Shown one piece after another: positions 1 through 10,591 of a stretch of DNA of 10,591 nucleotides. The DNA lies in assembly GCA_023249895.1 (NCBI GenBank), contig JAHFBS010000018.1, forward strand, positions 1 to 10,591, in the 5' to 3' direction. The notes under the pieces are model-generated. The model did not search any database, was not told the origin of the DNA, and saw nothing but the letters and a program-made list of their open reading frames with translations. This stretch comes from a bacterium. Lineage in GTDB: Bacteria > Babelota > Babeliae > Babelales > RVW-14. The translations under genes were made by a program, and so were the position numbers. The stretch's first letter is position 1, and each line of letters begins with the position of its first letter.

Positions 1-1512
1 AGATATTGCCGCAGGTTTTTCAACAAGCACCGCTTTTCCTGCGTGCAAACAGGCAAGTGCCTGTTCTGTATGGTAAGCATGTGGTGATGCAATAATGACC
101 AGATTTGTACGATCATCATTAAGTAGAACCCGATAATCATTATGAGCATTGGGTGCGTTGTAAACGCGTGCAAGCGTAAGCGCTGAAGCCATATCGGTGT
201 CAATAATTGAATGAAGCATAGCGCGCGTGTGTGTGGTAATTAAGGGTAAAATTTTTGTTTTTGCAAATCCACCGGCTCCAATAAGTGCCACCTGATTTTT
301 GCCTGCTGGAAGCTTGTATGTCTTGACTTCAGATGCGTCTACAGGGGTTTGCTCGGATAAAAGATCTGTTGATTGTGGTATGTGGTCGTAAGAAAGTACA
401 ACGCCAAGCGCGCCTTTATTGAGTTGTGCGTATGCTTCTTGAGCATGTTCAAGCGGGTAGTTATGCGTGATGAGATGATCGAGTTTGAGTTCTTTTTTTT
501 CAATCAACCGCACTATGTATGCCATATTTCGTTGCTCGGTCCATTGAACATAAGCATAAGGATAATCAATGCTTTGTTGCTCGTAAGCAACATCGTAACG
601 TCCAGGCCCATATGAACATGAAATAAAAAAATCAATTTCTTTGGCATAAAATGGATCGCGATCAAACGAAAGTTTTACATCGCCGACAACAACAACCCGT
701 CCTTTGCGACGCGTCATGAGCATGGCATTTTGTACAATATGCTCAGACTGAGATGCCGCAGTAATCAATGTTACATCTACCCCCTGATGATCAGTTGCAT
801 AATTAATTTCACGAATAACATCAGTGGTGTTGGAATTAAAACATTTTTCTGCGCCACTTTGATAGGCCAATGCAATTCTGTCATCTCGTATATCAATACC
901 AATGACGGTGCATCCCGCTTGCCGTGCAAGTTGGACGGTGAGTTGTCCAATAAGCCCCAATCCTACAACGCAAACTGTTTGGCCTATCTCAAGTTGTGCA
1001 CGACGAATTCCTTGAAGAGCAATTGCACCAAGAGCCGTAATGCTTGCTGCTTTGAGAAATTCGGCATGTGAAATACGTACAACCAAATTTTGCGGCACGC
1101 TTACGTTATCGGCGTGATACGCATGAGCAGATCCGGCGCATGCGACATAATCACCTATGCGTAAATTTCTTACTTTGCTGCCACATGCAACAATCTGTCC
1201 TGCGCATGAATATCCCAGCGGCATTACTTTGTAACGACGTTCTTGGACCAGCGCACGAGTTCCCGCATAACCATGTTCTTTAAGTGCCGCATATAATTTG
1301 CTGGTGTAACGCGTGAGATTATTAATGTAGGTTGCAAATGGTGATGTCGCAGCTGCTTTAACGGTTGAACTTTCTGTTCCTGAACTTATAAAAGAATAAT
1401 GCATGCGTACCAAAACATTGTGTTCTTGTACGAGTGGCGTTGGGACCGATTCGACAGAAATCTTACCGCGGCGTAAAAAAACTTGTCGTGATGATAATCG
1501 TTGATGCTCCAT
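1..1512 (-). CDS. Bi-domain oxidoreductase (MDR dehydrogenase fused to Gfo/Idh/MocA domain), 3' end off window
   Basis: This is an open frame of 504 codons with no stop before the left edge, so the C-terminus is missing. Residues 1-385 form a medium-chain dehydrogenase/reductase unit, with an SSGTE motif near residues 43-47, GYSCAG near 100-105 and a Rossmann loop GLGLIG at 184-189. Residues from about 405 begin a second Rossmann domain of the Gfo/Idh/MocA type, with IGAGGFAK at 411-418 and VEKP at 497-500. I see no four-cysteine structural zinc lobe. Proteins with this fusion are usually about 700 residues long, so roughly 200 may lie outside the window. They are typical of polysaccharide clusters and probably act as an NAD(P)-dependent sugar oxidoreductase in the cytoplasm; the exact substrate is not known. 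The start ATG lies 8 bases after the wecC stop with only a weak purine-rich AAAAGAG ahead of it, which fits translational coupling in the same operon. Fusion architecture is clear, substrate is unknown. Confidence 0.88.
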   Translation of the reverse strand, partial: MEHQRLSSRQVFLRRGKISVESVPTPLVQEHNVLVRMHYSFISSGTESSTVKAAATSPFATYINNLTRYTSKLYAALKEHGYAGTRALVQERRYKVMPLGYSCAGQIVACGSKVRNLRIGDYVACAGSAHAYHADNVSVPQNLVVRISHAEFLKAASITALGAIALQGIRRAQLEIGQTVCVVGLGLIGQLTVQLARQAGCTVIGIDIRDDRIALAYQSGAEKCFNSNTTDVIREINYATDHQGVDVTLITAASQSEHIVQNAMLMTRRKGRVVVVGDVKLSFDRDPFYAKEIDFFISCSYGPGRYDVAYEQQSIDYPYAYVQWTEQRNMAYIVRLIEKKELKLDHLITHNYPLEHAQEAYAQLNKGALGVVLSYDHIPQSTDLLSEQTPVDASEVKTYKLPAGKNQVALIGAGGFAKTKILPLITTHTRAMLHSIIDTDMASALTLARVYNAPNAHNDYRVLLNDDRTNLVIIASPHAYHTEQALACLHAGKAVLVEKPAAIS

Positions 1513-1520
1513 GCTCTTTT

Positions 1521-2819
1521 TTAACCCCAAAGATTGGTGTTTGTTTTGGTGGCGCCTTCAAGAAAAGCTTGTGATTGTTTTTGGTGAATGCTGTGCATAA
1601 GTCCACAGGTATCAATAAGAACTTTGTTATCAAAAGTGTCTTCGCGCATGAGGGTAAATTCTTTGTGCTTAACCAGGACAAGAATAATATCTGCCCAGGC
1701 AATTCCTTCCCATACGTCGTCAATCAATTCAATTCCGCGCTGTGTTGCTTCTTGTTTGGCGACATTATGATCGTATGCACGAAATTCAATGAGATCTTTT
1801 TTTGTTGCAAGCCCTTGTGCGATGTGGAGGGCTGGCGACTCGCGTAAATCATCAACATCTGGTTTAAAGGTAAGCCCAAGCGCAAGTATTTTTGGTTTGG
1901 TAATACCAAACATGCGTAACCCTTCCGCTTTCGAAAGGGTACGAGAGAGGATGTGTTGAGGTTTGTTATCATTAATAGCGCGTGCGGTGCGTAAAAGTTC
2001 AGTATCCTCAGGAAAACTTTCAATCAAGAACCAGGGGTCTACTGCAACACAATGTCCGCCAACACCACAGGTAGGAGTAAGTATTTTGACGCGCGGATGT
2101 TTATTAGCAAGTTCAATTACGGAGTAAGGATCAATTCCCGCGCGACAGCACATAGTTGCAATCTGATTGGCAAAAGCAATTTGTACATCGCGGCTTGAAT
2201 TTTCAACAAGTTTAACCATCTCTGCTGTTTTATCGTCGGTGACGTGTATGACGCCTCTTACAAATTTTGTATAAAAAGAGAAAGCTCGCTCGCAGGCGTG
2301 TTGGCACATGCCGCCAATGACGCGATCATTTTCAACAAGTTCTTTAAAAATGTGTCCAGGTAATACGCGCTCAGGACAATAAGCGACAAAAAAATCGACA
2401 CTTAATTTGAGGCCTGAGTTTTCTTCTAAAAAGAGAGCTAGCTTTTCAGTTGTTCCTACAGGAACCGTTGATTCGAGTATAACAAGATTGCCGGGCATAA
2501 GCCGTTTTGCAATTGATTCTGCAGCGTGAAAAACATGCCGCACGTCAGCAGATTTATCGTCTTTAAAAGGTGTTGGCACGGTGATGATAAAACAGTCTGC
2601 GTATTGAAGCTCATTAAAAACTTTAAAATTACCTGTTTTTAAAACTTTCCAAAGACGTTCAGAAAGTTCTGGTTCAAAAATAACCGGATCACCTTTGTTG
2701 ATTCGATTAACTTTTTCTTGATTAATGTCGTATCCATAAACATCGTAGCCAACGCTTGCTGCTTGGATTGCTGTTGGGAGTCCGATGTAGCCGAGTCCGA
2801 CGACTGAAATGCGCTTCAT
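1521..2819 (-). CDS. wecC: UDP-N-acetyl-D-mannosamine dehydrogenase (UDP-ManNAc to UDP-ManNAcA)
   Basis: A 432-residue member of the UDP-glucose/GDP-mannose dehydrogenase family, close to the usual length of about 420. It carries out the NAD-dependent four-electron oxidation of UDP-ManNAc to UDP-ManNAcA in the cytoplasm. Visible marks are the N-terminal NAD loop VVGLGYIGLP (6-15), TVPTPF (80-85), ESTVPVGTTE (116-125), YCPERVLPG (147-155), the central-domain Lys203 in VKLVENSSRD, the catalytic Cys257 in GVGGHCVAVDPWF, and LGLTFKPDVDDLRESPA (314-330) of the C-terminal UDP-binding domain. The HCVAVDPWF variant and the wecB neighbour favour ManNAc dehydrogenase over UDP-glucose 6-dehydrogenase (Ugd). 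A UDP-GlcNAc dehydrogenase of the WbpA type is the main alternative. The start is fixed by a strong AGGAGGAAGG just upstream. It sits between wecB and the fused oxidoreductase. Confidence 0.93.
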   Translation of the reverse strand: MKRISVVGLGYIGLPTAIQAASVGYDVYGYDINQEKVNRINKGDPVIFEPELSERLWKVLKTGNFKVFNELQYADCFIITVPTPFKDDKSADVRHVFHAAESIAKRLMPGNLVILESTVPVGTTEKLALFLEENSGLKLSVDFFVAYCPERVLPGHIFKELVENDRVIGGMCQHACERAFSFYTKFVRGVIHVTDDKTAEMVKLVENSSRDVQIAFANQIATMCCRAGIDPYSVIELANKHPRVKILTPTCGVGGHCVAVDPWFLIESFPEDTELLRTARAINDNKPQHILSRTLSKAEGLRMFGITKPKILALGLTFKPDVDDLRESPALHIAQGLATKKDLIEFRAYDHNVAKQEATQRGIELIDDVWEGIAWADIILVLVKHKEFTLMREDTFDNKVLIDTCGLMHSIHQKQSQAFLEGATKTNTNLWG

Positions 2820-2823
2820 GAAT

Positions 2824-2833
2824 CCTTCCTCCT
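2824..2833 (-). promoter_or_regulatory. Strong ribosome binding site of wecC
   Basis: On the minus strand this reads AGGAGGAAGG, with the AGGAGG core 8 bases before the wecC ATG. It lies in the 24-base gap after the wecB stop. It is much stronger than the sites in front of wecB and the fused oxidoreductase, so wecC may be the best translated gene of the operon. Confidence 0.75.
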
Positions 2834-2843
2834 TTATGTGAAT

Positions 2844-4037
2844 CTACATCATTAAAGCATGGGGTGCTGGTTGCGCATAATGGCTTTTAGATGGAGATGT
2901 TCGGTGTCTCAAAATTCCAAAATATTGTGCGAAAACTTCAACAATACGATCAGATGCTTTGCCGTCGCCATAGATAAAGCTTGTTTGAGGAGTGCTGTTT
3001 TCTTGGCACAGCATAGTGATGCCGTGTGTTATGGCTTCTTGATGAGTGCCGACCAACATTGCCTTGTTTTCCCATATTGCTTCTATACGTTCGGTTGTTT
3101 CTCGAAGTACCAGTACCCTTTTGCCTAATGCACCAGCTTCTTCTTGAATTCCGCCAGAATCTGTTATAACAAATGCTGCGCAAGAAAGCACGCTTACAAG
3201 ATCTTGGTAAGCAAGTGGAGGACAACACCATATTTGAGGGATTGTGCGTATACCAGAATCGGCAATTATTTTTTGCATATGGGGGTTGGGGTGAGTAGGG
3301 AAAATAAACTCAATTTCTTGATGTTGCTGTGCGCTTTTGATGATTGCTTCAAGTACGTGGGCAGCTCCTTGCGTAAATGATTCACGTCGGTGCATGGTAA
3401 AAAGGACAATCTTTTTATTTTCTGCGCGACAGCGAGCAATGAATTCCTGAACCTGCTGATTTGTTTTCAAAAGTCCGGTATCAATTTTTTGTTTAATAGC
3501 AAAAAGTGTGTCGACAATAGTGTTGCCAACGCAAAATGTTGTTTTTTCATCAACCCCTTCATGCAAAAGATTAAGTGTATTAAGTGGGGTGGGCGTGAAA
3601 TGCAAAGAGCTTATGGTGGTGATGAAGCGGCGATTTGCTTCTTCGGGAAATGGTGCTTGTAAGTTTCCTGTTCTCAGGCCGGCTTCAATATGAGCGACTG
3701 GAATAGTAAGATAAAAAGCTGCAAGTGCGGCTGCAAATGAACTTGAGGTGTCGCCTTGGACAACGACCATTGAAGGTTTGCATGCAGTAAAAAAATCGAA
3801 TGATGCCTGTAATGCGGTGCTGGCAATATGTGCAAGTGTTTGTCCCTCATGCATAATCTGTGCTGAGGCATCGGGCGTCATATCAAAAAGTTTGAGTACA
3901 TCATCAAGCAGGGAGCGATGTTGGTGAGTGGCATATAACAAACAGGGAATGGCAAATTGTTGAAGCTTTTTATAGACCGGCACCATCTTGAGCGCATCGG
4001 GGCGTGTGCCGACTACCAGAATGATTGGGCCTCTCAT
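2844..4037 (-). CDS. wecB: UDP-N-acetylglucosamine 2-epimerase, non-hydrolysing
   Basis: A 397-residue enzyme of the non-hydrolysing UDP-GlcNAc 2-epimerase family (GT-B fold, usual length about 375). It interconverts UDP-GlcNAc and UDP-ManNAc in the cytoplasm and supplies the substrate of the next gene, wecC. Motifs seen: GTRPDALKMVP (10-20), where the family usually has GTRPEA; Asp96 in VQGDTSS; Glu118 in HIEAGLRTG; Glu132 in PFPEEANRRF; His216 in TMHRRES; THPNP (248-252); and TDSGGIQEEAGALGK (292-306) followed by LRETTERIEA. Asp96, Glu118, Glu132 and His216 line up by spacing with the known catalytic residues of the E. coli enzyme, so it should be active. The C-terminus has about 20 residues beyond the usual end. 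It is first in the operon; its ribosome binding site is only a purine-rich AGAGAAAGA stretch. Confidence 0.95.
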   Translation of the reverse strand: MRGPIILVVGTRPDALKMVPVYKKLQQFAIPCLLYATHQHRSLLDDVLKLFDMTPDASAQIMHEGQTLAHIASTALQASFDFFTACKPSMVVVQGDTSSSFAAALAAFYLTIPVAHIEAGLRTGNLQAPFPEEANRRFITTISSLHFTPTPLNTLNLLHEGVDEKTTFCVGNTIVDTLFAIKQKIDTGLLKTNQQVQEFIARCRAENKKIVLFTMHRRESFTQGAAHVLEAIIKSAQQHQEIEFIFPTHPNPHMQKIIADSGIRTIPQIWCCPPLAYQDLVSVLSCAAFVITDSGGIQEEAGALGKRVLVLRETTERIEAIWENKAMLVGTHQEAITHGITMLCQENSTPQTSFIYGDGKASDRIVEVFAQYFGILRHRTSPSKSHYAQPAPHALMM

Positions 4038-4061
4038 CTTTCTCTTTCTCTAATTTTTTAC

Positions 4062-4085
4062 GTCATCTCTCGTGGAGGGAATGAC
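4062..4085. repeat. Short GTCAT...ATGAC palindromic relic in the wecB leader
   Basis: A 24-base imperfect palindrome bounded by GTCAT (4062-4066) and ATGAC (4081-4085). It has the same ends as the longer element at 4250-4347 and may be a decayed or minimal copy of the same family. It lies between the candidate promoter and the wecB start, so it would be transcribed as a weak hairpin in the leader. Confidence 0.45.
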
Positions 4086-4107
4086 CTCGTTGGGCATTTC
4101 TTTTTGA

Positions 4108-4135
4108 AAGATAGCAGAGCATAGAGGGAAATCAA
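4108..4135 (-). promoter_or_regulatory. Candidate sigma70-type promoter of the wecB-wecC operon
   Basis: On the minus strand TTGATT (4130-4135) and TATCTT (4108-4113) are separated by 16 bases, and the -10 is preceded by TG in the extended position (TGCTATCTT). This places the start of transcription near 4100, about 65 bases before the wecB ATG. It is assigned by eye from consensus only. Confidence 0.45.
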
Positions 4136-4167
4136 ATTTTGTATGACTTTGTTGTGCGTAACTATGA

Positions 4168-4221
4168 GGGCTTTTGAGAAGGGGAGAAGTGATATTAAAC
4201 TTCTTCTGAAGCCCGTTTTTT
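4168..4221 (+). terminator. Terminator-like hairpin with T run on the plus strand, no known upstream gene
   Basis: GGGCTT (4168-4173) pairs with AAGCCC (4209-4214), and inside it AGAAG (4185-4189) can pair with CTTCT (4200-4204). The plus-strand 3' side continues as G and six T. The orientation is opposite to all neighbouring genes, so it could end an unannotated plus-strand transcript, block antisense reading, or be chance. Confidence 0.28.
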
Positions 4222-4249
4222 AATACGGATTTTTTGGGCGTTGTCCTTT

Positions 4250-4347
4250 GTCATTCCGGGCAATGACCCGGAATCCAAGCACATTACGTGGATCCCCGAT
4301 CGGAGTCAGCCTGCCCGCCGAAGCCTTGGCGAAGGAGGGGGGATGAC
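4250..4347. repeat. GTCAT-type interspersed repeat element, apparently interrupted by a second repeat
   Basis: The stretch begins GTCAT and ends ATGAC. It contains a perfect 8-base stem, ATTCCGGG (4253-4260) with CCCGGAAT (4267-4274) around the loop CAATGA. After GGATCC a second hairpin appears to start with CCCCGATCGGAGTC, but the expected complementary arm is displaced by about 30 bases of GC-rich sequence (about 4308-4336, containing GCCCGCCGAAGCC and TTGGCGAAGG) before GGGGATGAC resumes. This layout matches the widespread GTCATTCC...GGGGATGAC intergenic elements known from many bacteria, with another short repeat nested in the right stem. No protein is encoded by it. Confidence 0.6.
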
Positions 4348-5735: not shown

Positions 5736-6443
5736 TTATGCAGCAGGAATGTTATCTGTTGGCGGTTGAGGTACTTCTGGCGTTGGCGCAGGCATAACTG
5801 GTATTACAGGAGTTGTTGGTGGCGCAGGAATTTCAATAGTGGGTGCTGGAGCAACTTCAGTAGGTGGTGTTGGAACAGTAACTTCGGGCATTGGGGTTGG
5901 CATTTCGACCACCGGTTCTGGCATTGGCACATCTGCTGCCGGTGTTATTTCAGATGGTGTTGGCGCCGGTGCTTCTGGAGCTTGTGGGGCAGGAACAATA
6001 ATTGGTTCAGGAATTGGCGTTTGAATTGGTTCTGGTTGAGGAACTGTTATAGGTTGTGGTGCTGCTACTATTAGAGCGGCTGTTGGTGCAATACCTGGTG
6101 TTGGCGTAGGAGCTGGGGTAGTTACTGGAGCGGTAATTGGTTGAGCAGGGGGTACTATGACAACTGGAGAAATTGGTTGTGGTGTTTGTACGCCAAGCCC
6201 CGTTTTGAATGTTTTGATTGCTTCATCAGCTTGGGTTACGCGGCGTTCAAGCTCTTGCGGAGAAGCATATTCAGTAGTTGATAACAGTGTAAGAAGTGGC
6301 TCTTTGAGCTCTTGCTTGATCTTGGCAACCATGCTGGTACCAATTTCATCATTTTGAGCGTAACCATTCTTAGCACACAGCGAATTGCAGCTGATAAGCG
6401 CCAGGCACAGCGTGCTATAGCGTGTAATTTGATATCGTTTCAT
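5736..6443 (-). CDS. Proline-rich exported protein, probable lipoprotein
   Basis: A 235-residue protein with three parts. Residues 1-24 are an export signal: MKRYQITR then a hydrophobic core ending LALISCN, where LISC-19 fits a lipobox; cleavage after SLCA-24 by signal peptidase I is the alternative. Residues 33-82 are helical and charged (KIKQELKEPLLTLL, QELERRVTQADEAIKTFK). Residues 87-235 are a low-complexity tail of Pro with Ala, Thr, Val, Ile and Glu, containing repeated PTP, PEP and PAP units, likely an extended rigid rod. Such tails span the periplasm or cell wall in TonB-like and adhesin-like proteins, but no TonB C-terminal domain is seen. The frame is open 20 codons further upstream, but TTAGGAGGAA sits 7 bases before the ATG at 6443, so that start was chosen. 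It is transcribed alone, ending at a strong terminator. Function unknown. Confidence 0.8.
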   Translation of the reverse strand: MKRYQITRYSTLCLALISCNSLCAKNGYAQNDEIGTSMVAKIKQELKEPLLTLLSTTEYASPQELERRVTQADEAIKTFKTGLGVQTPQPISPVVIVPPAQPITAPVTTPAPTPTPGIAPTAALIVAAPQPITVPQPEPIQTPIPEPIIVPAPQAPEAPAPTPSEITPAADVPMPEPVVEMPTPMPEVTVPTPPTEVAPAPTIEIPAPPTTPVIPVMPAPTPEVPQPPTDNIPAA

Positions 6444-6450
6444 TGATTTG

Positions 6451-6460
6451 TTCCTCCTAA
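6451..6460 (-). promoter_or_regulatory. Ribosome binding site that fixes the start of the proline-rich protein
   Basis: On the minus strand this reads TTAGGAGGAA, with 7 bases (CAAATCA) to the ATG at 6443. It decides against the upstream in-frame ATG at 6503, which would put the site inside the gene and bury the signal peptide behind 20 residues. Confidence 0.8.
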
Positions 6461-6541
6461 GGATAAAATTGTGCAATATTTTAATTTGACAACCAGAAAA
6501 CATAATGCATGAAGTTTATGATAAGATTGTGCGGTGAGTCA

Positions 6542-6952
6542 ATGAAACATTTTAAACTTATTGAGCATACGGCTGACATTCGACTTTATGTTGAGGCGAC
6601 AACTTATGAAGAACTTTTTGCAACGGCACTTCAGGGAATGGCTTCTATTATTTGTTCTCATGATGCAACACTGAACAATGATCAAAGAGGTGAAATACGT
6701 ATTGAGTCTCAGGATATTACGACGTTGTTGATTGATTTTTTATCTGAGGTTCTTACACGTGTGCAGACTGATAAGGTGCTTTTTTGTTCGGTAACATTTT
6801 TAAAATTTACTCAAACAATGATGCATGCGCGACTTGAAGGCTTCAATGTTGATCATTTTGATGAAGATATTAAAGCGGTAACGTATCATGAGGCGGAGGT
6901 AAAAAAGAATAATCGCGGAAATTATGAAACGATTATAGTTTTTGATGTTTGA
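6542..6952 (+). CDS. Archease family protein (RtcB RNA ligase cofactor)
   Basis: A 136-residue protein matching the archease family in length and motifs. IEHTADIRLYVEATTYEELF (7-26) matches the family N-terminus with the HTAD motif, and IKAVTYHEAEVKK (110-122) with the C-terminal IIVFDV matches the family end. Archease binds a metal ion through acidic residues such as those in HTAD and near VFDV, and speeds GTP-dependent activation of the RNA ligase RtcB, allowing multiple turnover in tRNA or RNA repair. No rtcB is in the window. The frame is open from 6509, but family proteins begin a few residues before EHTAD and a GGTGAG lies just ahead of the ATG at 6542, so that start was chosen. The gene is first on the plus strand, divergent from the proline-rich gene, and only 27 bases before the first propeller gene, with which it may share a transcript. 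Confidence 0.9.
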   Translation: MKHFKLIEHTADIRLYVEATTYEELFATALQGMASIICSHDATLNNDQRGEIRIESQDITTLLIDFLSEVLTRVQTDKVLFCSVTFLKFTQTMMHARLEGFNVDHFDEDIKAVTYHEAEVKKNNRGNYETIIVFDV

Positions 6953-6969: not shown

Positions 6970-7927
6970 GGGAGTTTGTATGAAGTATCTACAAAGATTA
7001 TGTGTAGGTGTAGTGCTTGTTGCTATCAATACACCACTTGCAGCGAGTAGTTTAACCGCCTACAACAATCAAACGGTATATGAAACAAAAAATCATGTAT
7101 TTCGCAAAAATGAAGTTGCCCAGGGATTTGTGCGTCTCAATGATGGCTTTACGGTGATGCCACAATCATGTGTGAACATGGATGTTCTGGTTACGATATC
7201 AGGCGGCATTGATTTGCGCGAAACGAGTACCATTCGCATGCTTAATGATCTTGGTTTTGATTCTGGAGTAACGTTAACAACAAGTGGCTATATCGACGGT
7301 CGAGGACATACCTTACTTTTGAATGGCGATTTTACCATTCCAGCTGGTAAAGTTTTGCATTTTAACGGTAGTACAATTCTTGATGCTCAAGGACATGAGC
7401 TTATCATTGGCGAGAATGCAGAGATATTTGTTGATACCAATGTGACGTTGACGATTGCCAATGCAACGATCAAAACAACCCGCAATGCACCAACATTTCC
7501 CGCATTACGTTGTGGCGCGCTCAACAGTAAGCTTGCACTTGATAATGTCATATTTGCACCAATTAATGATTTTCTATTTCAAAATGGTCAACTATTTATA
7601 CACAATGATGTCATGATTACGGGCACCTCAGCATTTATCTACCATTCACCGGCGTCAAGCTTTATTACCAAAAATTCGTGCTTATATCTTGATCATGGGG
7701 TAACGCTTTCTATAGCTCCAGCAACGTTTACCGATGCACCGTATTCTTTGAACAATACGTATACCAATAACAATTTTATAAAAATGGCAGATGAGACATC
7801 GGTGTTATATCTTAACGGTTGTTCTCTTCAAACAACCACGACCGGCTGGCGCTTAACAACCGGTACGGTGAATTTTGATGATCGCGTACAGGTAAAAACC
7901 GACACAACGCTAACGCTGACATCGTTA
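6970..7927 (+). repeat. First copy of a tandem gene-scale duplication (leader to end of N-terminal domain)
   Basis: This part corresponds to 9123-10079. The ribosome site, the opening ATGAAGTATCTAC and the whole N-terminal domain are shared. By hand count residues 25-190 are about 85% identical and residues 190-315 about 73%. Similarity falls sharply at the first propeller blade. Confidence 0.85.
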
Positions 7928-9109
7928 AATTTAAGATCAAGAAAAAGTTATGAAAGTAACACGCTCTGGTCGGTTAATTGGAGCCCCGATGGTCGTTATT
8001 TAGCGATTGGTGGGTCTGCTAATTTTGGGCCAACCGATTACGAATTACAGGTATATCGTTTTAATGGGGTGTCTTTAACACTCGTAGCTCAAGCTACGAT
8101 TGGTGGCTTTTTTGATGCAGGTGAGTCGATTAATTGGAGCCCTGATGGACGTTACTTGGCAATTGGCGGCGCTTGTTTTACATTTAGCGGCACTGTTTCC
8201 ATAGCAGTTTACAGCTTTGATGGAACATCTTTGACGCTACTACCTGCTACGCAAATTGCGTTGAATAATGCTGTTAGATCGGTGAATTGGAGTCCGGATG
8301 GACATTATTTAGCCATTGGAGAATCAGGTCCAACGGGTGGTTTTGTGACAAGAGTCTATGCCTTCGATGGAACGTCTTTAACGCTTATACAGGCTCTGGT
8401 GAATGATCTTGATGGTTGTTTGGCTGTTAATTGGAGTCCGGATGGAAACTATTTAGCAATTGGCGGTGGTAGCTTAACCGGTGGATATGTGCTTCGGGTT
8501 TATAGTTTTAATGGGAAAACGCTGACATTATTGCCAGGAACGCAATTTACTTTTGGTAATACTCTTAATTCGGTTAACTGGAGCCCCGATGGGCGCTATT
8601 TGGCTATTGGTGGATTTACCCCAACGAGTGGATATGAGCTGCAGGTATATAGGTTTGATGGAATAAATCTGGTGCTTGTTCCCGGAGCGCGGATTGATTA
8701 TGGTACGGTGATTTATTCGGTTATGTGGAGTCCCGATGGACGATATGTGGCTGTTGGCGGAGATTCGCCAGCGGGTGGCCATACGATATTGGAAGTATAT
8801 AGTTTCGACGGTGTATCATTGACTCTTATTCCAGCCGCACAAATCGCTTATAGCGGTGCAATTTGGCAGGTGAATTGGAGTCCTGATGGTCGTTATCTTG
8901 CTATTGCGGGACAAAACCCAACCAATGGATTCCAGCCAATCGAAGTGTATAAAGTTAATTATGTTAACAACTCTATCCCGCAAGCAGTAACACGTAGCAT
9001 GGTCTTTGGTGATAAAGCCAAAGGAGCTGCGTATGATGCACATCTGCGCTTGCAACCAGGTGCCAGCATAAATCTTGCTGGCAAGATGCTTTACGATAAC
9101 GTGAATTAA
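6980..9109 (+). CDS. Secreted protein: N-terminal beta-solenoid-like domain plus seven-bladed WD40-like propeller
   Basis: A complete 709-residue protein. Residues 1-23 are a clear signal peptide ending PLAAS, so it is exported. Residues about 25-320 form a domain with runs of short alternating hydrophobic strands and turns (GYIDGRGHTLLLNGDF, GKVLHFNGSTILDAQGH, NVTLTIANATIK, CLYLDHGVTLSI), which suggests a right-handed beta-solenoid. From residue 330 there are seven repeats with core WSPDGRYLAIGG. Their Trp residues are at 334, 386, 437, 485, 534, 583 and 633, a spacing of 48-52. Each repeat ends with a (V/L)YxFDGxSLTL strand. Seven repeats fit one closed seven-bladed propeller. A tail of about 50 residues (from about 660) follows and may return to the solenoid style. 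No catalytic motif or anchor is seen; a binding or scaffold role on the surface or towards a host is an inference. GGGAG lies 5 bases before the ATG. A paralogue follows 25 bases later. Confidence 0.9.
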   Translation: MKYLQRLCVGVVLVAINTPLAASSLTAYNNQTVYETKNHVFRKNEVAQGFVRLNDGFTVMPQSCVNMDVLVTISGGIDLRETSTIRMLNDLGFDSGVTLTTSGYIDGRGHTLLLNGDFTIPAGKVLHFNGSTILDAQGHELIIGENAEIFVDTNVTLTIANATIKTTRNAPTFPALRCGALNSKLALDNVIFAPINDFLFQNGQLFIHNDVMITGTSAFIYHSPASSFITKNSCLYLDHGVTLSIAPATFTDAPYSLNNTYTNNNFIKMADETSVLYLNGCSLQTTTTGWRLTTGTVNFDDRVQVKTDTTLTLTSLNLRSRKSYESNTLWSVNWSPDGRYLAIGGSANFGPTDYELQVYRFNGVSLTLVAQATIGGFFDAGESINWSPDGRYLAIGGACFTFSGTVSIAVYSFDGTSLTLLPATQIALNNAVRSVNWSPDGHYLAIGESGPTGGFVTRVYAFDGTSLTLIQALVNDLDGCLAVNWSPDGNYLAIGGGSLTGGYVLRVYSFNGKTLTLLPGTQFTFGNTLNSVNWSPDGRYLAIGGFTPTSGYELQVYRFDGINLVLVPGARIDYGTVIYSVMWSPDGRYVAVGGDSPAGGHTILEVYSFDGVSLTLIPAAQIAYSGAIWQVNWSPDGRYLAIAGQNPTNGFQPIEVYKVNYVNNSIPQAVTRSMVFGDKAKGAAYDAHLRLQPGASINLAGKMLYDNVN
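7964..8940 (+). repeat. Seven tandem coding repeats (propeller blades) in the first paralogue
   Basis: The Trp codons of the WSPDG motifs lie at 7979, 8135, 8288, 8432, 8579, 8726 and 8876, giving units of 144-156 bases that keep the reading frame. The core DNA (AATTGGAGYCCNGATGG and ATTTAGCNATTGG) is strongly conserved between units, while the outer strands vary, which points to duplication of blades within the gene. Confidence 0.85.
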
Positions 9110-9122
9110 TTCAGGATTGGTA

Positions 9123-10079
9123 GAGGGAGCGTATATGAAGTATCTACGTAGTTTATGTTTACTTTTGTTATCGTTTATTTCAACGTCACTTTTGGCCAAC
9201 AGCATCACGGCCTACAATAATCAAACTGCGTATGTCACCAAAAATTTTGTATTTCATAATGAAGCATTAGCGCAAGGCTTTGTGCGGCTTAATGAAGGTT
9301 TTACTGTTGCGCCGCACTCATGTGTCAACATGGATGTGTTGTTTACGATTTCTGGTGGTATAGATTTGCGCGAGACAAGTACGATCAGAATGCTCAAAGA
9401 TCTTAAGTTCGATTCTGGGGTAACGCTGACTACCGGCGGAAATATCGACGGTCGAGGGCATACATTAATTTTGAATGGTGATTTTAGAATTCCCGCTGGC
9501 AAAGTTTTGCATTTTAATGGAGACACGATTCTTGATGCTCGTGGCAATGAAATAATTATTGGCGAAAATGCAGAAATATTTGTTGATACCAATGTGACGT
9601 TGACGATTCTTAATGCAACGATCAAAACAACGCGCAATGCGCCAACATTTCCTGCATTACGTTGCGGTGCCTTCAACAGTAAACTTGCACTTGATAATGT
9701 AGTACTAGAGCCTGCTGATGATTTTCTGTTTTTGGGTGGACGATTTTTTATTCACAACGATGTAGCAGTTACCGGGACGTCGGCATTTGTCTATAATTCG
9801 CCAGTACCAAGTTTTATTACCAAAGATTCGTGTTTATATCTTGATCATGCAGTGACGTTTTCTATGGCGCCAGCAACGTTTACTGATGCGCCGTATTCGC
9901 TCAAAAATACGTATACCGATAACAACTTTATCAAAATGGCTGATGAAACATCAGTTTTGTATCTGGATGGTAACACGCTCCAAACAACCAATACCGGTTG
10001 GCGTGTGACCACCGGCACGGTGAGTATTGATAATCGCCTCCAGATAAAAACCGATCCAACATTGACCATGACAGCCCTG
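9123..10079 (+). repeat. Second copy of the tandem gene-scale duplication
   Basis: Partner of 6970-7927. The closest DNA match is around 9560-9665 against 7420-7510, where only a few bases differ. The copies are in direct orientation about 2.15 kb apart, so recombination between them could delete or convert one copy. Confidence 0.85.
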
Positions 10080-10591
10080 GAGCCGATTGTTGTCTTGCAG
10101 AATAGTGATTGGGTTGAAGCTGATGCCGTTGCCTGGCATCCGAGTGGAAATTATCTTGCGGTTGGTAATGGTCTTGGTGCTATCAATGTCTATTCCTTTG
10201 ATGGATCGATACTTACATTTGTTGCGCAAGCCGGTGCTCCGGCGTACGCTATGAATTGGAGTCCTGATGGCAGATATTTAGCGGTAGGAGTCCCCGCTGA
10301 TTATGGGCCTACTCCAGGAAGTATTTTTAGATTTGACGGTACGTCATTGACCTTTGTAGCCAATACTGGTGAAATCCCTTGTTGGAGCCCTGATGGTAGA
10401 TACATAGCATCTACCTCTGGTGGCACCACGTTGCAAATCCATAGATTCGATGGTTTAGCATTGGAATATATTACTCAGCTTGGGGTAAATGATTTGTATT
10501 TTTTATCATGGAGTCCCGATGGACGTCATCTTGTTGGTGGAGGAGCTACTGGACTTGCTGACAGGATAAACGTGTATGATTTTGATGGAAC
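9135..10591 (+). CDS. Secreted beta-solenoid-like / WD40-like propeller protein, second paralogue, 3' end off window
   Basis: An open frame of 485 codons continuing past the right edge; paralogue of the gene ahead of it. Residues 1-22 are a signal peptide (MKYLRSLCLLLLSFISTSLLAN). The N-terminal domain runs to about residue 315 and is close to that of the first copy (ISGGIDLRETSTIRML, GENAEIFVDTNVTLTI, PTFPALRCGA and others are shared). The propeller then differs. The first blade has WHPSGNYLAVG in place of WSPDG, with Trp334; the next Trp are at 375, 417 and 459, a spacing of 41-42 residues, shorter than the 48-52 of the first copy. Four blades are visible, so at least three more may lie outside. 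The start is supported by AGAGGGAG 5 bases upstream, and the gap to the first paralogue is only 25 bases, so the two are probably cotranscribed. Function unknown; export is well supported. Confidence 0.88.
   Translation, partial: MKYLRSLCLLLLSFISTSLLANSITAYNNQTAYVTKNFVFHNEALAQGFVRLNEGFTVAPHSCVNMDVLFTISGGIDLRETSTIRMLKDLKFDSGVTLTTGGNIDGRGHTLILNGDFRIPAGKVLHFNGDTILDARGNEIIIGENAEIFVDTNVTLTILNATIKTTRNAPTFPALRCGAFNSKLALDNVVLEPADDFLFLGGRFFIHNDVAVTGTSAFVYNSPVPSFITKDSCLYLDHAVTFSMAPATFTDAPYSLKNTYTDNNFIKMADETSVLYLDGNTLQTTNTGWRVTTGTVSIDNRLQIKTDPTLTMTALEPIVVLQNSDWVEADAVAWHPSGNYLAVGNGLGAINVYSFDGSILTFVAQAGAPAYAMNWSPDGRYLAVGVPADYGPTPGSIFRFDGTSLTFVANTGEIPCWSPDGRYIASTSGGTTLQIHRFDGLALEYITQLGVNDLYFLSWSPDGRHLVGGGATGLADRINVYDFDG

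Follow-up and report, generated by a model that had tools for sequence, protein, structure and literature searches.

Results

The A/B gene pair and its paralogues

The window analyzed here is the whole of contig JAHFBS010000018.1 (10,591 nucleotides; GenBank assembly GCA_023249895.1), one contig of a 914-kb, 142-contig genome of Candidatus Babeliales, and its end carries two genes, denoted A and B, each encoding a leader, a conserved N-terminal domain (hereafter, the head) and a beta-propeller (Table 1). The original prediction, made from the sequence alone, described the two as adjacent paralogues with a fixed head and a variable propeller, and this arrangement is confirmed, with both genes on the same strand. 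Full-length B is represented by the 682-aa protein P0006, encoded on an 11,419-base contig, with one difference from the product of B in the window across 485 residues. At least two further close copies, C (head 78% identical) and D (head 77%), are encoded in the same genome; the heads are 74-80% identical in all pairs of these four other than B-C (93%), and the matches between these close heads (E-values of 2e-138 or lower) are not due to chance.

At the protein level, A and B share 80% identity in the head (292 codons) and 44% in the propeller (166 aligned codons); identity drops at residue ~315-320, in agreement with the predicted head identity of about 80% and the predicted drop at the start of the propeller. 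The differences claimed for blade spacing (48-52 residues in A versus 41-42 in B within the window; 41-50 in full-length B) and for the motif of blade 1 (WSPDG in A, WHPSG in B) were likewise recovered. The claim that the similarity includes the leader and the ribosome site does not hold: the leaders are 50% identical (22 codons), and an ungapped comparison of the 30 bases before the ATG gives 12 matches, followed by 13 identical coding bases. The picture of a collapse in similarity also overlooked a conserved stretch after the propeller, where similarity resumes in a 37-residue C-terminal tail (A-C, 86%; A-D, 78%) that is conserved about as strongly as the head.

The Pfam WD40 family (PF00400) matches the propellers of A and B with 80 and 41.8 bits, respectively (cut-off 27), which places them in the WD40 superfamily, and the seven four-stranded blades of such propellers are present. 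The WD dipeptide of canonical WD repeats is absent from all four propellers (A-D), and the GH dipeptide occurs twice in A, once each in C and D, and not in B; the propellers are therefore classed only as WD40-like. The mean blade-to-blade identity is 0.54 in A, 0.36 in B and 0.59 in D, with values of 0.76-0.96 among three of the D blades; these are means and not medians, and they do not place the propellers among the highly repetitive ones as delimited in the relevant passages of PMC9218822 (median above 60%). Among the best structural neighbours of the A propeller are the WRAP-named design 7big and 2ymu, a highly repetitive propeller; 5yzv is tied with them.

A propeller predicted to be nested in a beta-helix

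In the AlphaFold2 (AF2) model of A, the head contains a ladder of beta-strands. Because the fold-match lists for A contained propellers throughout, the fold of the helix was assessed in P0121, a homologue that lacks a propeller. In such relatives (~356 aa), the head runs directly into the tail, and the model of P0121 is a single beta-helix that is unbroken to the last residue. The alignment used for this model comprised 30 of the 35 homologues of a propeller-less paralogue, one of which (P0151) ends in a blade motif; 32 of these 35 homologues have no blade motif. The tail of A aligns with the C-terminus of the propeller-less homologues, and a tail is found at the C-terminus in 117 of the 120 homologues searched; A matches the hidden Markov model (HMM) of the tail with an E-value of 1e-23, being itself one of the 81 sources of that HMM. 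Because the propeller-less relatives join head to tail as one continuous beta-helix, the comparison indicates that the head and the C-terminal tail of A are two parts of a single predicted beta-helix, interrupted by the propeller, and that the seven-bladed, WD40-like propeller sits just before the last rung of the helix.

The predicted helix is a continuous single-chain solenoid of short strands, as expected of right-handed parallel beta-helices. One Foldseek search with the P0121 model yielded no match at an E-value of 0.001, and the head stretch of A has no Pfam family match. A C-terminal outer-membrane beta-barrel, as in classical autotransporters, was not found; the chain ends at the tail, with no Pfam match to such a barrel at E-values up to 1.

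Several paralogues depart from this plan. The propeller lies within the first third of the beta-helix in L073 (9961-12063, 12056-14338 and 14345-16441) and L022 (1-999), which suggests a second insertion site. In L064 (868-3423), two consecutive matches of the head HMM precede the propeller, and this beta-helix seems to have been extended by duplication. Relatives of ~1035-1330 aa (L055, 1527-5516; L060, 1006-4137; L067, 1323-4430 and 4445-7753) have at least two propeller matches behind the head.

Two layers of propeller divergence

For the comparison of propellers, blades were cut just before the tryptophan of each WSPDG-like motif, and each pair of proteins was scored by the number of best matches, out of 14, that link corresponding blades. 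The alignment used for family-wide comparisons contained 81 of 120 listed homologues (160 were found), picked mainly by length (651-737 aa), and the blade test was applied to the 39 of these 81 proteins that could be divided into seven segments, none shorter than 28 aa.

The blades of B and C correspond in 14 of 14 best matches, and identity at the same position is 0.63 versus 0.35 elsewhere, a difference reached in a fraction of 0.0002 of the permutations. For this pair, the head and the alignable propeller core have similar rates of synonymous substitutions (dS, 0.50 and 0.58), and their rates of nonsynonymous substitutions (dN) are 0.040 and 0.190, respectively, i.e., 4.8-fold higher in the propeller; the upper-face segments, where the alignment is less certain, have a dN of 0.558 and a dS of 1.37. 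Silent codon differences do not differ significantly between head (65/265) and propeller (31/95; Fisher p = 0.14). A run test on the heads of A-D detected no conversion tract (all p > 0.1; the D head was covered only in part). Since dS is similar in head and propeller core and dN is 4.8-fold higher in the latter, gene conversion confined to the head is disfavoured for B and C; the two parts appear to be of the same age, with faster protein change in the propeller, and the comparison favours divergence at the protein level. The original prediction had proposed that a nonsynonymous drop with normal dS at the propeller would point to diversification, and B-C falls on this side.

Other pairs behave differently. 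The blades of A and B correspond in none of 14 matches (p = 0.44), and the counts for A-C, A-D, B-D and C-D are 2, 3, 4 and 1; in all five pairs, the matches are no better than with shuffled blade order (fractions 0.18-0.78). Because the blades of A and B do not correspond, a dN/dS profile across their propellers cannot be interpreted, and the plain profile along A-B was dropped for this part. Correspondence is complete between A and its likely orthologue P0002 (14/14) and between P0012 and P0013 (7/7 rows). Conversely, it is largely lost between P0029 and P0032 and between P0047 and P0062 (4/14 each), with heads 94% and 95% identical, respectively. A cyclic shift of the blades was considered as the cause of non-correspondence and rejected; among the listed pairs with heads at least 80% identical, the best shifts add at most 0.05. 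In the 81-protein alignment, the nearest neighbour by head and that by propeller agree in 24 cases and strongly disagree in 37. Because blades are unmatched despite close heads, and because head and propeller neighbours disagree, whole propellers appear to be rebuilt or replaced between close heads, with the mount retained, and A, B/C and D are best described as three unmatched types of predicted propeller within one genome. The prediction would have been undermined by propellers acquired separately as unrelated modules, and the A-B blades go part of the way in that direction. The contrast between B-C (14/14) and A-B (0/14) strengthens an interpretation in two layers.

A candidate mechanism of rebuilding is visible in D, which contains a 135-bp tandem array of 3.3 copies, 91% alike, with a period of one blade (L019, 742-1190); blades 2 and 3 of D are 96% identical at the DNA level. 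We regard this array as a direct sign of propeller rebuilding by what is, judging from these identities, recent blade duplication. Inside the window, no tandem repeats were detected at a score of 40.

Distribution of the family

Besides the four close heads of A-D, the genome of the window has five places with weaker matches, on contigs C58, C82 and C117; the weaker match on C82 is the start of D. With the own genome counted in each case, heads were found in 25 of 49 genomes (E-value 1e-3), in 8 of 101 genomes of the order (1e-30) and, in an alignment search (1e-10), in 37 of 101 genomes of the phylum. Several genomes have many copies with head and propeller, and the maximum is 25 head matches in a single 1.1-Mb genome. 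The originally predicted combination of an unchanging head and a variable module, in an exported-looking family with multiple copies, is supported.

More than 80 residues precede the head in 34 of the 120 homologues, most of which carry NSNA-type motifs. NSNAI/SNALxY-type repeats form an N-terminal extension ahead of the head in P0042 (1-144) and other homologues, and occur both at the N-terminus and, in similar form, at the end of the L070 protein (3-4274); this type of extension is possibly a coiled-coil stalk.

Genomic context

The coordinates of the features are collected in Table 1. The archease gene upstream of A is a neighbour outside the A/B family. Further upstream, on the minus strand, positions 5736-6503 encode a protein that by eye looks exported and whose C-terminal part is long and rich in proline, and the genes at positions 1-4037 resemble, also by eye, those for a two-part oxidoreductase, a nucleotide-sugar dehydrogenase and a UDP-GlcNAc 2-epimerase, a surface-sugar set adjoining A/B. 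Paralogue C (L018, 2629-6561; G000:C70) is flanked on the same strand by genes that by eye resemble those for an ABC-transporter ATPase and an ABC-2 type permease, a position resembling an insertion into an ABC ATPase/permease operon. On contig C117, an 825-aa protein that resembles outer-membrane barrels by eye (L024, 2965-5442) adjoins a head-like paralogue.

Table 1. Coordinates of genes A and B, their domains and the adjacent archease gene in the window.
Feature	Positions	Strand	Evidence and details
Gene A, 709 aa; in order, signal peptide (probable), beta-helix head, nested seven-bladed propeller, beta-helix tail	6980-9109	+	open reading frame; Pfam; AF2 model (pLDDT 89.9, pTM 0.88)
A leader, probable signal peptide, residues ~1-23	6980-7048	+	helix 2-17 in model; hydrophobic by eye; 50% identical to B leader
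A head, parallel beta-helix (fold assigned from P0121), residues 24-315	7049-7924	+	80% identical to B and to C
A propeller, seven blades, residues ~323-663	7946-8968	+	W at 334, 386, 437, 485, 534, 583, 633
A tail, last part of beta-helix, residues 671-709	8990-9106	+	86% identical to C
Gene B	9135-10591	+	cut by contig end in blade 4, after fourth blade motif
B head, residues 24-314	9204-10076	+	80% identical to A, 93% to paralogue C
B propeller, blades 1-4	10101-10591	+	W at 334, 375, 417, 459; Pfam WD40, 41.8 bits
Archease gene	6509-6952	+	ends 27 bases before A; PF01951, 2.8e-29 over 6524-6949

Discussion

A changing propeller on a probable conserved mount

Whereas the architecture, nesting, copy number, layers of divergence and blade duplication are computed, the export route, surface location, binding and host target are what we infer. 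The leader forms a hydrophobic helix in the model of A and has an A-x-A-like site (by eye), and the A/B family is probably exported by the Sec pathway. WD40 propellers commonly bind via their upper face. Across the 81 sequences, the share of the commonest residue is 0.33 in the BC loop and 0.31 in the DA loop versus 0.78 in the AB turn and 0.51 in the CD turn, and the gap share is 0.31 and 0.15 in these loops versus 0.00 in the turns; thus, the face of the propeller formed by the BC and DA loops varies in both sequence and length, and the opposite face (AB and CD turns) is conserved. Between A and P0002, the upper loops differ more often than the lower turns (21/88 versus 5/58, p = 0.026). Binding of host molecules by the propeller is a reasonable proposal, and recognition of molecules of the protist host is the most likely role because of the N-terminal leader, the rod-like helix and the many copies in intracellular parasites of protists.

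We consider it probable, if by no means settled, that A and B are members of a family found in multiple copies in Candidatus Babeliales and probably exported via Sec, in which a conserved beta-helix mount carries a nested, changing propeller for recognition. The right-handed parallel beta-helix, begun by the head and completed by the tail, would be the mount, and the propeller inserted before the last rung would be the changing part. Once a gene has been duplicated, its corresponding blades would diverge rapidly in amino-acid sequence, as in B and C, and, over longer times, whole propellers would be rebuilt or replaced, as in A, B/C and D, with blade-by-blade tandem duplication visible in D. 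The set of propellers in each genome, presenting different upper faces on a common rod, would bind other molecules, most probably those of the protist host. A more far-reaching version, in which whole propellers are exchanged between loci by recombination in their conserved flanks and new ones arise by amplification of blades, yielding strain-specific repertoires of host binding in a receptor-diversification system of Babeliales, is speculative and improbable in our judgement.

Alternative explanations

A number of observations weigh against recognition by a fast-changing propeller. The dN/dS ratio of the propeller is below 1 in all pairs computed (B-C, 0.33 in the core and 0.41 in the upper-face segments; 0.32-0.53 in a separate calculation over pairs) and therefore does not demonstrate positive selection; relaxed constraint would suffice. 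Strands A and D are weakly conserved as well (0.38 and 0.39 across the 81 sequences), the conserved lower turns hold the fold's own motif, and the upper loops of A and P0002 differ no more than the strands (48/186). In only 16 of 39 proteins are the blades more alike within the protein than to the blades of the protein with the nearest head. It should be noted, too, that the ratio of propeller to head distance is 0.6-1.5 in eight pairs on contigs of different length with heads at least 75% identical, and that in the G004 pair L064/L065 the propeller identity (66%) exceeds that of the head (60%); therefore, fast change of the propeller is not universal. Some of these points would be expected if the propeller were a loosely constrained spacer or structural disc that diverges under relaxed constraint without selected specificity, namely the low dN/dS and the equal divergence of strands and upper loops, and propeller-less members of the family exist and are conserved. 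However, the motifs of the fold are kept, one face is conserved and the other is variable in sequence and length, and many copies with head and propeller are maintained in several genomes, so that we consider the spacer explanation rather unlikely. That the beta-helix is a carbohydrate-active enzyme resembling lyases or hydrolases, with the propeller targeting it to the substrate, seems very improbable to us: polysaccharide lyases and phage tailspikes are frequent among the structural neighbours of the helix, but a parallel beta-helix fold by itself shows no function, no enzyme family for the helix was found in Pfam or NCBIfam, and the best match to the sequences of solved structures (E-value 0.09) is not convincing.

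Gene conversion confined to the head, which the original prediction had named as its alternative, would keep the heads of paralogues alike while the propellers merely age. The B-C data, with similar dS, no excess of silent differences and no tract in the heads, speak against it, and conservation of the tail would require conversion at both ends that skips the middle. Conversion or exchange may have acted elsewhere, given the strong disagreement between head and propeller neighbours in 37 of 81 proteins, and the evidence is divided. In thirteen pairs on the same contig (contig identity inferred from equal length) with heads at least 75% identical, the distance ratios are 3.6-13.0, compared to 0.6-1.5 in the eight pairs on contigs of different length, but high ratios, up to 16.6, also occur in many pairs of the latter kind. 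Silent differences between A and B are more frequent in the propeller (43/70) than in the head (93/228, p = 0.003), which says little given that the blades do not correspond. For six B-type proteins, the head data reject the propeller tree in the approximately unbiased (AU) test (p = 0.024), but not in the Kishino-Hasegawa (KH) test (p = 0.059), and the head tree is not rejected by the propeller sequences (AU p = 0.16). In the G006 tandem pair L056a/L056b, the proportion of silent differences (pS) is lower in the head (0.46) than in the propeller (0.73) and the tail (0.66), and head conversion may have acted in this and other pairs; silent sites in within-genome pairs of four other genomes are mostly saturated. 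As an explanation of the family, head-only conversion appears unlikely.

Relation to known systems

The passages on WRAP and other recently amplified propellers of the WD40 superfamily (PMC9218822) describe propellers that are likewise seven-bladed and renewed by blade amplification, mostly with the highly repetitive region at a protein end; WRAP is located behind a STAND ATPase. Unlike these, the propeller of the A/B family is nested in an exported-looking beta-helix, and a pair of blades at least 80% identical is present in only 4 of the 39 copies tested. For Babela massiliensis, a member of the same phylum, WD40 and other beta-propeller proteins are reported, some of them predicted to be secreted and proposed to act on the host (PMC4378268); the main text of that paper does not contain the word beta-helix, and its passages on these proteins describe neither nesting nor blade turnover. 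Signal sequences are predicted for 44% of the proteins of C. destructans, according to the passage concerned in PMC6561590, and a term search of PMC12172432 yielded nothing on A/B family proteins. The beta-helix adhesins SRRP of L. reuteri (5nxk), TibA (4q1q) and antigen 43 (7koh) show no sequence match at E-values up to 1, and their structural scores fall in the same range as those of lyases and tailspikes. We know of no nested propeller in these adhesins, and no published description of a propeller-in-beta-helix architecture was found in the open-licence literature searched. Blade-amplifying propellers are already known; what appears to be new is their placement as a variable insertion within a conserved beta-helix that looks exported.

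For the question of how parasites of the Dependentiae/Babelota choose and handle their protist hosts, nested, changing propellers on a conserved mount are concrete candidates for recognition proteins, for which a propeller-less relative in the same genome provides a natural control. The birth of propellers via blade amplification can also be traced here, because a constant domain on either side serves as the reference. The family looks like one mount that is kept while its grip is changed from copy to copy.

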